38,417 nucleotides of DNA from Actinomycetota bacterium (GTDB lineage: Bacteria; Actinomycetota; CADDZG01; WHSQ01), in assembly GCA_013694625.1 (NCBI GenBank), contig JACDCD010000032.1:1-38417 (forward strand). Direction: 5' to 3'. The notes beneath the pieces were generated by a model. It was not told where the DNA came from. It worked only from the letters and a program-made list of their open reading frames with translations, and ran no database searches. Each line of letters opens with the position of its first letter. The stretch's first letter is position 1. A program made the translations under genes and the position numbers. Of the stretch, positions 32,503 through 38,417 are shown in pieces.

Positions 32503-32577
32503 TGGTGCCCCCGGCAGGATTCGAACCTGCGCACCTCGCTCCGGAGGCGAGTGCTCTATCCCCTGAGCTACGGGGGC
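32503..32577 (-). tRNA. tRNA-Arg (anticodon CCG)
   Basis: On the minus strand the sequence folds into a full cloverleaf. The acceptor stem is GCCCCCG/CGGGGGC, the D stem GCTC/GAGC, and the anticodon stem CTCGC/GCGAG with loop CTCCGGA (anticodon CCG, reading CGG). The T arm is GCAGG-TTCGAAT-CCTGC. A 4-nt variable loop and an encoded CCA are present, 75 nt in all. It is head-to-head with argS, which charges it. Its 3' end faces the recombinase remnant, so it may be the attachment site of the island. Confidence 0.97.
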
Positions 32578-32606: not shown

Positions 32607-34265
32607 ATGATTACCGACCGTCTCTCCGATCTCGTGGGACAGGCCCTCGAACGGGCCGCCGCTGAGGGCGTGGTCCCCCTCGAAGGCGTCCCCGCGATCG
32701 AGTTCGAGCGCCCTCGCCGACGGGAGCATGGTGACTGGTCCACCAACCTGGCCCTCGGCCTTGCCAAGGGGGCCGGGAATCCACGCACCCTTGCCCAGGC
32801 GCTGGCCGAACGCATGCCGGCCTCCGACCTGGTGGAGAGCGTCGATGTCGCCGGGCCCGGCTTCCTGAACTTCCACCTGTCGGCGAGCTGGCTCCACGAC
32901 GTCGTCACCAGGGCTGCGGACGAGGGGAGCTCCTTTGGGCGCGCCGACTCGGGCTCCGGGACGAAGGTCAACATCGAGTATGTGTCGGCCAACCCGACCG
33001 GTCCGATAAACGTCGTCAGTGGCCGCCATGCCGCCATCGGGGATGCGATCGCAAATCTGCTGACCGCCGTTGGTTGTGAGATCACCAGGGAGCATTACGT
33101 CAACGATGCGGGCGGCCAACTTAAGTTGTTTGGGGAGTCGATCGCGACTCACTATCTGCGTCACTTCGGCCTCCCGGCAGAGCTTCCCGACGACGGCTAC
33201 AGAGGCGCCTACGTGGCAGATCTAGCCGACGAGATAGTGCAGGAGATCGGCGACGAGCTCGTACACGCCGATCCCGAGAAGCGGACGACCGCTCTGCTCG
33301 AGCTCGGGCTCACACGCATGCTTGGGAGGACTCGCGCAACCCTGGAACGGTTCGGAACCCACTTCGATGTGTGGACGCTCGAACACTCCCTGCACGAATC
33401 GGGTGCCGTCGAAACCGCCCTGCAACGTCTCGGTGACCGGGGCTACGCGCAGGAGCGCGACGGCGCTCTGTGGTTCAAGGCAACCGACCTCGGCGACGAC
33501 AAGGACCGCGTTCTTGTTCGCTCCAACGGCGCGCCGACGTATCTCGCATCCGATGTTGCTTACTTCGTGCACAAGTTCGATCGCGGTTTCAACCGGCTCA
33601 TCTACCTGCTCGGCCCGGACCACCACGGCACGGTTGCTCGGATGCTCGCCACCGCCGAAGCCCTTGGCTACGACCGTAATCGGGTCGAAATGCATCTCGT
33701 CCAGGTGGTGACCTTGTCAAGCGGAGGAACGACGCTCAAGGCTTCCAAGCGGGCCGGTGTGATTGTGGCCTTGGATGAACTCATGGACGAGGTCGGAACA
33801 GATGCGGCGCGCTACACCTTCTTGACGCGAGCCATGGAATCTCCCCTCGAGTTCGACATCGAGTTGGTTAAGCAACAGGCGCCTGAGAACCCCGTTTTCT
33901 ATGTGCAGTACGCGCACGCTCGTATCTGCTCGATTCTGCGCAGGGCGGACGAAGAGGGCATCAGGTTTGGCGGCGCCGGCGCGCCTTTGGACCGGCTCGT
34001 TCATCCCAGTGAAACGGAGTTGATGCGCAAGCTTGCCGACTACGAAGAGGTTGTGCCCGAGGCCGCCCACCTTCGCGCTCCTCAAAGGATCGCCCGATAC
34101 GTCGACGAGCTTGCGGGCGCGTTCAGCGCTTTCTACCGGGATTGCAAGGTGATCTCCGAGGATACCGAGCTCAGCGCCGAGCGGCTGAAGCTGTGCGTTG
34201 CCACCAAGCGCGTGATCGCGGATGCACTCGGGCTCCTCGGAGTAACCGCTCCCGAGAGGATGTGA
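32607..34265 (+). CDS. argS: arginine--tRNA ligase
   Basis: Class I synthetase that charges tRNA-Arg, 552 aa. The ATG at 32607 gives MITDRLSDLVGQALERAAAE; the frame is open far upstream through the tRNA, but without homology. The Add-1 N-terminal domain (EHGDWSTNLAL) is followed by VNIEYVSANPTGPINVVSGR, where the usual HVGHGR (HIGH) motif is replaced by NVVSGR at residues 135-140. The KMSKS region reads KASKRAG (378-384). HYVNDAGGQL, LLGPDHHG and the C-terminal DALR anticodon-binding domain (VQYAHARICSILRRA) are normal. The catalytic variant is either a known subtype or an oddity. phzF-like gene follows after 2 nt. Confidence 0.96.
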   Translation: MITDRLSDLVGQALERAAAEGVVPLEGVPAIEFERPRRREHGDWSTNLALGLAKGAGNPRTLAQALAERMPASDLVESVDVAGPGFLNFHLSASWLHDVVTRAADEGSSFGRADSGSGTKVNIEYVSANPTGPINVVSGRHAAIGDAIANLLTAVGCEITREHYVNDAGGQLKLFGESIATHYLRHFGLPAELPDDGYRGAYVADLADEIVQEIGDELVHADPEKRTTALLELGLTRMLGRTRATLERFGTHFDVWTLEHSLHESGAVETALQRLGDRGYAQERDGALWFKATDLGDDKDRVLVRSNGAPTYLASDVAYFVHKFDRGFNRLIYLLGPDHHGTVARMLATAEALGYDRNRVEMHLVQVVTLSSGGTTLKASKRAGVIVALDELMDEVGTDAARYTFLTRAMESPLEFDIELVKQQAPENPVFYVQYAHARICSILRRADEEGIRFGGAGAPLDRLVHPSETELMRKLADYEEVVPEAAHLRAPQRIARYVDELAGAFSAFYRDCKVISEDTELSAERLKLCVATKRVIADALGLLGVTAPERM

Positions 34266-34267
34266 GC

Positions 34268-35131
34268 ATGGAGTTTCTGCAAGTCGATGTCTTCACCGAG
34301 ACACCTTACAAAGGCAACCCGCTTGCTGTTTTTCCCCGCGCCGGTGAGCTGACCAGGCGACAGATGCAGGCGATCGCTAGAGAGATGAACCTCTCGGAAA
34401 CGACCTTCGTGACGAGTGCAGCGCGTGATTCCTACGAGGTGCTCATCTTCACTCCAGGGGAAGAGCTTCCCTTTGCCGGTCATCCCACGATAGGCACGGC
34501 GTGGACACTCCGGCACCTGGGGCTCATCTCGGGTGACGAGGTCTATCAACACTCGCCCGCGGGACCGACTTCGGTGAAGGCTAGAGGGCAGAGGCTGTGG
34601 TTCGCGAGAACCGGAGTTGCGACCGGGGACATCGAAGACACCGATCCAACCGCCCCGAGGAGGATTGCCGACGCCCTTCGTCTCGACGTCGACGCACTGG
34701 GGCTCGAGGCGCGTGAGCTCGGCCGCTCGGGTCTTCTGCGGCCTGCGTACTCGAACGCGGGCCTGCAACAGCTTATGGTGCCGGTCAAGAACCTCGGCGC
34801 ACTGGGCGCGTGCCGTCCAGACGCCGAGATCCTGGGTGAGGTCTCTCCCGAAGGCGCCTACTGCTTCACCGCGACCGGGGCCGGCCAGGCGCGGGCGCGG
34901 GGCTTCTTTCCGGACTTCAATATCCCGGAAGACCCGGCGACGGGGTCCGCAGCGGCCGCACTCGGTCTCTATCTCGCTTCCAGGCTGGGTGCGGTCGAGC
35001 TGTCCGTGACGCAGGGGGTCGAAATCGGCCGCCCCTCACTCATCCGGATCGAGGCAGAACCCGGGCGCGTGGCGGTGGGTGGGAGCTGCCGGATGGTGCT
35101 CTCCGGCCGCCTCGAAACGCTTCCGGAGTAG
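34268..35131 (+). CDS. PhzF-family isomerase/epimerase
   Basis: This family holds PhzF of phenazine synthesis and many enzymes of unknown substrate with a diaminopimelate-epimerase-like fold. The ATG, with AGAGGA nearby, gives 287 aa starting MEFLQVDVFTETPYKGNPLA. The catalytic Glu44 lies in NLSETTFV, His72 in FAGHPT, and Asp222 in the DPATGSAAAALG motif. The fold has two similar halves. It is not in a phenazine cluster. Its place 2 nt after argS and before lysA suggests general metabolism, but the substrate cannot be told from sequence. Confidence 0.88.
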   Translation: MEFLQVDVFTETPYKGNPLAVFPRAGELTRRQMQAIAREMNLSETTFVTSAARDSYEVLIFTPGEELPFAGHPTIGTAWTLRHLGLISGDEVYQHSPAGPTSVKARGQRLWFARTGVATGDIEDTDPTAPRRIADALRLDVDALGLEARELGRSGLLRPAYSNAGLQQLMVPVKNLGALGACRPDAEILGEVSPEGAYCFTATGAGQARARGFFPDFNIPEDPATGSAAAALGLYLASRLGAVELSVTQGVEIGRPSLIRIEAEPGRVAVGGSCRMVLSGRLETLPE

Positions 35132-35205: not shown

Positions 35206-36522
35206 ATGCACAACTTGCTTCCGGCCTCCGCCAGGCCCATGTCCGACGGCCATCTAATGGTGGGTGGCTGCGACACGACCGAGCTCGCTCAGCGCTTCGG
35301 GACTCCATTGTTGGTCCTGGACAGCATGACCTTGGAAGCCAAAGCACGCTCCTACACGCAGACGATGGGGGCCGGGAGGGTCTTTTTCGCATGCAAGGCG
35401 CTCTGCTGCGTTGCACTTTGCGAGGAGCTTGACGGCCTTGGGCTGGGACTCGACGTCTGCAGTGGGGGAGAGCTTGCAACCGCCCAGGCCGCCGGGTTCC
35501 CGGCGCACCGAATTGTCTTTCATGGCAACAACAAATCTCTCGAAGAACTTCAGCAAGCGCAAAGGGCAGGCGTGGGTCGGATCGTCATCGACTCGTTCGA
35601 TGAGATCGATCGTCTCACCAAGATCGGTGCGCCGCTAGATCTGCTCATGAGAGTGACCCCGGACGTCGCCACCGATACTCACGAATCGGTGCAGACGGGT
35701 CAGCACGACTCCAAGTTTGGTTTTGCCTTCGGCAACGGGGTCGCCATGGCCGCACTGGAGAGCCTCCTCGATGTCCCGAACGCTCGTGTCGTGGGGCTTC
35801 ACTCGCATATCGGGTCGCAAATTTTCGAAATGTCGGCTTTCCGGCTTGCAGTAAGCCGCCTAGCAGGGTTCCTTAGCGCGGCGCGAGACCACCTCGGCTT
35901 CATAGCGGAAGAGATCAATCTCGGCGGGGGGCTCGGCATTGCCCACACGAGCGATCAAGTGAGCCCGCGCCCTGAAGCCTCCGTCGAGGCGATTCGGAGA
36001 GCTGTGACGCATGAGTTTGGCCTTCGTCATTTGCCAAAGCCACTCATCGCGATCGAGCCGGGGCGCTCGATAGCAGGGCCCGCGGGGGTCACCCTCTACT
36101 CGGTCGGAACGGTCAAACGTCTTCCGGGTGGACGGACCTTCGTATCGGTCGACGGCGGCATGTCGGACAACATTCGACCAGCGCTCTATGGGGCCCGTTA
36201 TGAAGCGTTTCTCGCCAACCGCATGAACTCCCCCCTGGGAGCGCAGGTAACTGTTGCCGGCAAGCATTGTGAATCGGGCGACGTGCTCGTGAGGGATGTG
36301 CATCTGCCAGATGATGTTCAGCCCGACGATCTCTTGTGCATTCCGGCAACCGGCGCTTACACATATTCGATGGCGTCCAACTACAACCGCATCCCGAAGC
36401 CGGCAGTGGTGATGGTCGACTCGGGGAATGCGGTTGAGATCATCAGGCGCGAGAACTACGACGATGTTGTGCGCCTCGACCGCCACCTCGACGGAACGCC
36501 GGTCTCGAGGGGAACTTCGTGA
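35206..36522 (+). CDS. lysA: diaminopimelate decarboxylase
   Basis: PLP enzyme that makes L-lysine from meso-diaminopimelate, the last step of the pathway. The 438-aa protein has the alanine-racemase-type barrel. The PLP Lys64 is in RVFFACKALC, where the common motif is YAxKAN. GLHSHIGSQIFE, EINLGGGLGI and IEPGRSIAGPAG follow, and the C-terminal domain has VDGGMSDNIRPALYGARYEA, CESGDVL and GAYTYSMASNYNR. These are LysA-type, not ornithine-decarboxylase-type, features. An internal ATG at 35239 is an alternative start. The stop overlaps hom as GTGA, linking lysine and threonine branches. Confidence 0.95.
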   Translation: MHNLLPASARPMSDGHLMVGGCDTTELAQRFGTPLLVLDSMTLEAKARSYTQTMGAGRVFFACKALCCVALCEELDGLGLGLDVCSGGELATAQAAGFPAHRIVFHGNNKSLEELQQAQRAGVGRIVIDSFDEIDRLTKIGAPLDLLMRVTPDVATDTHESVQTGQHDSKFGFAFGNGVAMAALESLLDVPNARVVGLHSHIGSQIFEMSAFRLAVSRLAGFLSAARDHLGFIAEEINLGGGLGIAHTSDQVSPRPEASVEAIRRAVTHEFGLRHLPKPLIAIEPGRSIAGPAGVTLYSVGTVKRLPGGRTFVSVDGGMSDNIRPALYGARYEAFLANRMNSPLGAQVTVAGKHCESGDVLVRDVHLPDDVQPDDLLCIPATGAYTYSMASNYNRIPKPAVVMVDSGNAVEIIRRENYDDVVRLDRHLDGTPVSRGTS

Positions 36523-37814
36523 GCTCTTCGATACGTGTCGGTCTGCTGGGCTGCGGCGTCGTCGGCGGCGCCACGGCACGCATCCTGCTCGAGCACGCCG
36601 ACACCGTGTCACAGAAGGCCGGTGTCCGAGTGGACCTGGCTCGCATAGCGGTTCGAAGTCTCTCCAAGCAGCGGGAGATTTCGCTGCCCCCGGAAACATA
36701 TACGACCGACCCTTGGGAGGTCGTGGGCGATCCAAACATCGACGTGATCGTAGAGGCCATGGGCGGTATCGAGCCCGCTCTCGACCTCATCCTTCACGCC
36801 ATAAGGAGTGGGAAACACGTCGTCACCGCCAACAAAGAGTTGCTGTCGACTCTCGGCCGCGAGGTCATGGCCGCTGCGGACGAGGCGGGGGTGGATGTTC
36901 TGTTCGAGGCGTCAGTGGCCGGCGGAATTCCGATTGTGCGGCCGATGAAAGAGTCGCTGGCCGGAGACAGGGTGAAGCGCGTAATGGGAATCGTCAACGG
37001 AACGACGAACTACATTCTCACCCAGATGTCGGAAACGGGAGTGTCGTTCACCGAAGCACTCGGCCAAGCCGAGGAGCTTGGTTATACCGAGCTCGATCCT
37101 TCGTCGGACATCGAGGGCTTTGACGCAGCATCGAAAATCGCAATTCTTGCGTCGATTGCCTTTGGGGCCCGGGTTGTGGCCGGAGACGTGCATCGTGAGG
37201 GCATCTCGAAGGTGACAGCAGCAGATGTCGACGCGGCTCACCAGCTGGGGTACGAAGTGAAGCTCCTGGCGGTGGCCGAAATCGAGGACGGGCAGGTCGC
37301 AGTGCGGGTCCATCCGGCAATGCTGCCCCGCACACACCCGCTTGCCTCTGTGCGCGACGTTTACAACGCCGTGTTCGTTGAAGCAGAAGAGGTCGGCGAG
37401 CTGATGTTCTTGGGGCGCGGGGCGGGCGGGCCTCCGACAGCCTCTGCCGTCGTTGGCGACATCGTCGAGCTGGCCCGCAACATCAAGTCGGAGAGTCGGA
37501 GTCCGGGCAGCGCCTATTATCGGGAACCCGCGCACATCAAAGCTCAAGATGAAGTCGGCGTTCGTTACTACGTGGTCTTGTCGGTCCAGGACCAACCCGG
37601 AGTGTTGTCTTCGGTCGCAGGAATGTTTGCACATCATGGCATTTCCATAGCCAGCGTGCGGCAGGAAGGATTCGGCGATCAAGCGTCTCTGGTGTTGATC
37701 ACCCATCATGCTACCGAGGCGCAGCATGCAGCGACCTTCGGCGACCTCGAGCAGCTTGACGCGGTGAAGAGTGTCGGGTCGAGGATGAGGGTCGAGGGGA
37801 CGTCCGAGAGTTGA
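36519..37814 (+). CDS. hom: homoserine dehydrogenase
   Basis: NAD(P)-dependent reduction of aspartate semialdehyde to homoserine, the branch toward threonine and methionine. The GTG start, with GAGGGG upstream, gives 431 aa. A Rossmann motif [10 protein letters not shown] lies at residues 8-17. Lys106 is in [24 protein letters not shown] and [20 protein letters not shown] (the conserved catalytic region) follow. A C-terminal ACT domain from about residue 350 ([20 protein letters not shown]) predicts feedback control, usually by threonine. It is the long monofunctional type, with no aspartokinase fused. Confidence 0.97.
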
Positions 37815-37842: not shown

Positions 37843-38417
37843 ATGAACGAGCGTGCCCTTGCGGTAGCGGGCGCGAGGGGTGTGATCAAAAGATATTTCG
37901 ACCACCTCCCCGTGGGGCCGGCCACTCCAATCGTAACCCTGGACGAAGGGGACACACCTCTTATCTACTCGGCCAGACTGTCGGAAGAGTGCGATGCGGA
38001 CGTGTGGCTCAAATGGGACGGACTGAATCCCACCGGGTCATTCAAGGACCGCGGCATGACCGTTGCTATTTCCAAGGCGCTCGAGGAAGGTTCCAACGCC
38101 GTGCTGTGTGCTTCCACGGGTAACACGAGCGCCTCCGCGGCGGCATATGCGGCACGTGCAGGGATGATCTGCGCGGTCCTTATTCCCTCCGGCAACGTTG
38201 CGCTGGGCAAGCTGGCTCAAGCGCTTATACACGGAGCTCGCGTGATCGAGATCGACGGCAACTTCGATGAGGCGCTTGGGTTGTCGCAGGAGATGGCCCG
38301 CTCCCATCCCATCACGCTGGTTAACTCGGTCAACCCCTACCGCATCGAGGGTCAGAAAACCGCCGCGTTTGAGATTGTCGAAGCCCTGGGACGAGCTCCC
38401 GACATGCATCTCATGCC
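37843..38417 (+). CDS. thrC: threonine synthase (5' part)
   Basis: PLP enzyme converting phosphohomoserine to threonine. The window ends after 191 codons, so the gene is partial. GGAGGGGGGG lies just before the ATG. The PLP Lys68 is in [30 protein letters not shown] is the phosphate-binding loop, followed by [17 protein letters not shown]. These are features of the short, actinobacterial-type ThrC. It follows hom by 28 nt, so lysA-hom-thrC look like one operon; homoserine kinase may lie beyond the edge. Confidence 0.95.

Follow-up and report, generated by a model that had tools for sequence, protein, structure and literature searches.

The argS gene on this actinobacterial contig most likely (probability of about 0.7) encodes the sole working arginyl-tRNA synthetase (ArgRS) of its host and belongs to a recurring subtype, in which N/V/S/T/G-x-V-S/N takes the place of the HxGH signature as a unit and the ATP pocket would be rebuilt. 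The gene lies near one end of the window, i.e., the whole stretch of 38,417 nucleotides that was analysed, and the features discussed below are the following.

32503–32577, minus strand: tRNA-Arg with anticodon CCG, divergent from argS (ARAGORN; Rfam tRNA, 68.2 bits)
32607–34265, plus strand: argS, arginyl-tRNA synthetase, starting with ATG at 32607 (552 residues plus stop)
33006–33026, plus strand: residues 134–140, INVVSGR, at the place of the HIGH motif (HxGH to N135-V136-V137-S138; from the translation)
33612–33629, plus strand: residues 336–341, GPDHHG, with P337 for the usual Ala
33738–33755, plus strand: residues 378–383, KASKRA, the KMSKS loop with Met replaced by Ala379
34268–35131, plus strand: phzF-like gene (Pfam PhzC-PhzF), located 3' of argS in the loci of the host family
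35206–36522, plus strand: lysA-like PLP decarboxylase (Pfam Orn_Arg_deC_N and Orn_DAP_Arg_deC)
36519–37814, plus strand: hom, homoserine dehydrogenase (Pfam Homoserine_dh)
37843–38415, plus strand: thrC-like PLP enzyme, truncated at the end of the window (Pfam PALP)

Gene Product and Active-Site Motifs

The argS product was assigned as a full-length ArgRS by the TIGR00456 equivalog, which scored 388.9 bits over residues 5–552 (cut-off, 261.65). The Pfam domains Arg_tRNA_synt_N, tRNA-synt_1d, and DALR_1 follow one another in the order of an ArgRS, for which the tRNA-synt_1d score was modest yet above its cut-off (66 bits). An AlphaFold2 model was obtained with a mean pLDDT of 94.4, and its best match among solved structures was the ArgRS 3fnr; the predicted fold is that of an ordinary ArgRS.

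The HIGH signature of class I synthetases is HxGH or, in a PROSITE-like form, [HT]-x-G-[HNTG]. At this place the protein reads INVVSGR, embedded in SANPTGPINVVSGRHAAIGDA, and translation of the codons confirmed the original prediction that both motif histidines are replaced, by Asn135 and Ser138. The third motif position, which had been overlooked, changes from Gly to Val137, the rarest of the three changes among the ArgRS examined. NVVS deviates from the signature at positions 1, 3, and 4, and it also differs from the altered motif of IleRS2, which has His at position 3 where this protein has Val and no motif histidine at all. The rest of the active site had been described as intact, which held for SANPTGP and HYVNDAGGQL. 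It did not hold for P337 or for the KMSKS place, which reads KASKR with both lysines and the serine kept and the Met replaced. The motif is not a sequencing accident, because a 91%-identical congener (L003/L032) carries the same one and both histidines are absent in all 15 argS genes of the host family. Val137 was found in 15/15 host-family rows and in 0/57 rows that are not of the Val type. The first helix (α1) is predicted at 136–154 in this protein and at 144–162 in an HVGS class-mate, which is the same start when the numbering offset of 8 is considered. Position 141, which is His in the host family, was considered as a stand-in histidine and rejected as not general, as Ala or Ser occupies it in the phylum of genome G061.

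Distribution of the Val-Type Motif

ArgRS sequences were searched for the Val-type pattern [NVSTG]-x-V-[SN...], and the search revealed that NVVS-like motifs recur in distant bacteria. All 15 tetrads of the host GTDB family are of the Val type (NVVS in 12, and SVVG, TVVL, and SVVL in one each). Within the class of the host, a generic pattern matched in 21 of 24 genomes; 14 of these matches belong to the family and are of the Val type as read by eye, and the other seven are HVGS (5), HVGA (1), and HVGN (1). The Val pattern, which misses G005 (tetrad SVVL) and NPVGP forms, was detected in 14 of 296 genomes of the host phylum, all within the host family. The G061 phylum, which contains the record L106, matched the pattern in 68 of 80 genomes, and reading by eye found a Val-type copy in all 68. 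One genome of this phylum (G115) has an additional HLGH fragment on another contig, which is probably contamination. The Bacillota-type phylum of G064, including the Eubacteriales record L044, has the Val type in 36 of 249 genomes, chiefly as NVVN.

The phylum of G063, including the Balneolales record L107, matched in 159 of 247 genomes. Among the matches listed, reading by eye showed that position 3 is always Gly and that position 1 is Thr, Ser, or Asn throughout; Arg replaces the second His at position 4, with Gly kept, in at least 60 rows. Judging from the tetrads of this and the other phyla, losing one or both HIGH histidines is ordinary in bacterial ArgRS, and it is therefore Val at position 3 that distinguishes the subtype. 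Further odd tetrads, LVSH and HVAH, were seen in Actinomycetota ArgRS (L152, L162). A literature search confined to open-licence papers found no description of an ArgRS without HIGH, nor of this subtype, so that the Val-type ArgRS is apparently an undescribed variant of a known enzyme.

A Discrete State with Coupled Changes

The composition of the motif was compared over 226 ArgRS, a deduplicated convenience sample from which sequences of less than 33% identity to the query, those with a gapped or unread motif, and duplicates were dropped. Val3 is present in 91 of them and coincides with His1 in 0/91 and with His4 in 0/91; position 4 of these 91 is Ser (60), Asn (27), Leu (2), Gly (1), or Ala (1). 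The 135 non-Val enzymes have His1 in 122 cases and His4 in 91. GADHHG is changed to GPDHHG in 77/91 Val-type enzymes against 0/135 others (one of the 135 being unread at this site), a link that stands for only 3–4 independent origins, with which a sign test on pairs cannot reach significance. P337 occurs in all rows of the G061 phylum, in 14/17 Bacillota-type rows, and in 5/15 host-family members including the query, being missing in the other 10. In 15/15 family members the KMSKS Met gives way to Ala (10), Gly (3), or Ser (2), a change that none of the remaining ArgRS among the 226 shows. Residues E124, S127, N129, R140, E162, N166, G169, Q171, Y312, D316, K323, H339, and R382 are invariant in 91/91 Val-type enzymes, and K381 is kept in 90/91. 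The Asp of GDA at column 146 is present in 57/57 non-Val-type rows and 14/15 family rows and is lost in G061-phylum rows. A coupling of residue 365 to Val137, which appeared in the first set, was dropped, since Val, Ala, Leu, or Met stands at this site in Bacillota-type enzymes with the normal Gly as well.

These data bear on the alternative of relaxed constraint, according to which a missing HIGH is simply tolerated by ArgRS and NVVS would be one drifted, uncompensated form among many. It agrees with the wide plasticity of the motif, which takes 40 different tetrads in the 226 ArgRS, with the Thr, Ser, and Asn first residues and the 60 or more Arg fourth residues listed for the G063 phylum, and with the HVGS, HVGA, and HVGN forms already present in the host's own class. 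Drift is nevertheless difficult to reconcile with the fixation of Val3 within clades (15/15 and 23/23), its constant association with the loss of both histidines, the several origins of similar sets, and the P337 and small residue at 379 that track Val3. We hence consider relaxed constraint unlikely, and favour replacement of the motif as a compensated set.

Another alternative is that the altered motif was selected as a resistance trait by an adenylate-mimicking inhibitor, like the GxHH of IleRS2 against mupirocin. We know of no natural ArgRS-directed adenylate mimic, nothing at the argS locus hints at an inhibitor, and the subtype spans entire phyla, which together make this explanation improbable. 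What speaks for it is the GIHH motif carried by the IleRS of the same genome and the precedent of IleRS2, for which PMC10485003 describes up to about 1000-fold resistance brought about by a non-Gly third position, and at least two origins.

Origins of the Val Type

The distribution was examined on an 81-row tree and on 41-row and 50-row sets for AU tests, which are hand-picked subsets of the loci. When the motif columns were removed, Val3 required four changes on the 81-row tree, at least three of them by starred branches. The AU test rejected a single clade of the host family with the G061 phylum (p 0.0043), with the Bacillota-type (p 0.0027), and with both together (p 0.0018). The Val forms of the G061 phylum and of the Bacillota-type may share one origin. 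As the same replacement arose repeatedly in distant bacteria, these sequences look like a recurring alternative active site rather than a broken gene.

A further alternative is that the gene or its motif segment was taken over from another phylum with a Val-type ArgRS. In its favour, residues 112–260 alone (138 columns) fail to reject the clade of family and G061 phylum (p 0.52). The whole-protein AU tests do reject it, the tree nests the host family within Actinomycetota, and the gene order matches that of actinobacterial relatives. Windowed identity is also against transfer: over the flank 140–175, the family shares 60% identity with class-mates and with other Actinomycetota, and 48% and 54% with the potential donors, the G061 phylum and the Bacillota Val type, respectively. 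Over residues 115–132 the identities are 63% and 59% to the G061 and Bacillota Val types, 54% to class-mates, and 60% to other Actinomycetota; this segment gives no hint of a Val-type donor, because its nearest sequences are normal-motif Bacillota (64%). An imported motif tract is accordingly disfavoured, with no such tract seen, and we regard transfer as very improbable compared with repeated origin of the replacement in place.

The Sole Working Enzyme and Its Locus

The original prediction regarded this argS as the only one, with a second ArgRS of normal HIGH motif as the observation that would overturn it. Such a gene was looked for in the host's own genome (2.72 Mb, 98.2% complete, 230 contigs, not closed) with PF00750, and the search gave a single match and no second argS. 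Exactly one ArgRS match was likewise obtained in 15/16 host-family genomes; the remaining one, G013 (98% complete), gave no argS by PF00750 or TIGR00456 search, which is probably an assembly gap. Comparison of the gene with that of the 91%-identical congener yielded dN of 0.052 and dS of 0.360, indicating that argS is under purifying selection.

The gene order at the locus is argS-phzF-lysA-hom-thrC. The tRNA-Arg(CCG) lies upstream of argS also in 8/14 host-family loci, and phzF is present in 14/14, adjoining argS in 13. The lysA gene was found within the fetched stretch in 66 of 76 non-family loci (L036–L111). The simplest reading is that argS is ancestral, both as a gene and in its position. 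The phzF-like gene that stands between argS and lysA in the host family was absent in the same 76 non-family loci.

In the G061 phylum, PF00750 matched in 74/80 genomes, and 3/80 (G125, G131, and G134) were seen to have a canonical full-length ArgRS as a second copy. The Val-type copy of G131 and G134 is undecayed (NVVS with MSKR). The copy beside the canonical ArgRS of G125 (L178) is degenerate in both motifs (TAVS, VSRR) and looks decayed. Of the 36 Bacillota-type genomes having the Val type, 35 show no other strong argS match, the exception being G761, where a second strong match of another type lies on a 3.3-kb contig.

That the protein is a non-catalytic paralogue, with Arg-tRNA made by an enzyme absent from the assembly, is scarcely credible, since the unclosed 230-contig assembly and the decayed G125 copy on its side are set against a single argS per genome throughout the host family and the conserved KMSKS lysine and arginine, arginine pocket, and anticodon domain. 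The sole argS found, the conserved locus, the purifying selection, and the ordinary predicted fold together make it very probable that the NVVS ArgRS does the housekeeping work in this organism.

Proposed Mechanism and Significance

The HIGH motif, GxDHHG, and KMSKS come together around the ATP of class I synthetases, and since all three are changed here, we infer a rebuilt pocket. The adenine pocket would be rebuilt from several sides: Val137 may fill the space over the base, and Pro337 together with the shortened KMSKS Met may re-fit the pocket around it. The ATP phosphates would be held without HIGH histidines by the KMSKS lysine and arginine, His339, His340, and backbone amides, perhaps with Asn135 and Ser138; of the DHH residues, His339 is invariant and His340 nearly so. 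Reaction and specificity are presumed unchanged, with Arg and ATP giving Arg-AMP and then Arg-tRNA. The expectation of a little-studied subtype with altered ATP contacts thus stands as far as the sole argS, the family-wide set, the convergence, and the coupled changes are concerned. The subtype is neither rare nor private to this host, and its ATP contacts are proposed from sequence and from known class I structures. We would give even odds to the stronger view that the Val type is a second, convergent solution of the ArgRS active site, having no HIGH histidine, adenine packed on Val, and an obligate GxDHHG/KMSKS re-fit (the latter in the host family).

If this is true, a class I synthetase can do without the HIGH histidines. 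Textbooks give HIGH as the hallmark of this class, and the motif is used for calling and annotating synthetases; the Val-type ArgRS is a caution against labelling such genes defective. A sole and presumably essential enzyme that lacks all conserved HIGH residues, in a form with several origins, makes the need for these histidines in transition-state stabilisation directly testable, and the Val-type ArgRS offer naturally occurring combinations of compensating residues for exchange.

Comparison with Known Systems

The protein is similar to canonical bacterial ArgRS (TIGR00456; 3fnr) in domain order, fold, arginine-site and DHH residues, and the DALR anticodon domain, and differs from them by the changes of HxGH to NVVS, GADHHG to GPDHHG, and KMSKS to KASKR. 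The TIGN of TrpRS is a known tolerated change of HIGH; TrpRS and CysRS with TIGN or HIGN keep the Gly, however, and only one or two positions are changed. The Bacteroidota/Balneolota-type ArgRS with TxGH or TxGR similarly lack the first or both histidines, but they keep Gly3, have Ala or Ser at 337, and retain the KMSKS Met (Ile in 1/9 rows).

Decay of HIGH throughout the host's genome was excluded, as the other class I synthetases read keep the motif apart from IleRS: ValRS has HMGH, LeuRS HMGH, MetRS HLGH, and CysRS HIGN, with names assigned from motifs and lengths. The IleRS (G000:C188, L210) has GIHH, the known type-2 form linked to mupirocin hyper-resistance in PMC10485003. With GIHH in IleRS and NVVS in ArgRS, two class I synthetases of this genome have altered HIGH motifs.

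According to PMC10485003, IleRS2 carrying G/AxHH is an active enzyme with hyper-resistance to mupirocin, and its altered motif arose at least two times; a His at position 3 misplaces adenine in IleRS1, whereas a shift of the motif allows IleRS2 to accommodate it. The Val-type ArgRS resembles this active enzyme in being a naturally occurring class I synthetase whose third motif residue is not Gly, and in its repeated origin. The two differ in that one His of the IleRS2 motif stands in for the first His (PMC10485003), whereas the ArgRS variant is without any motif His.
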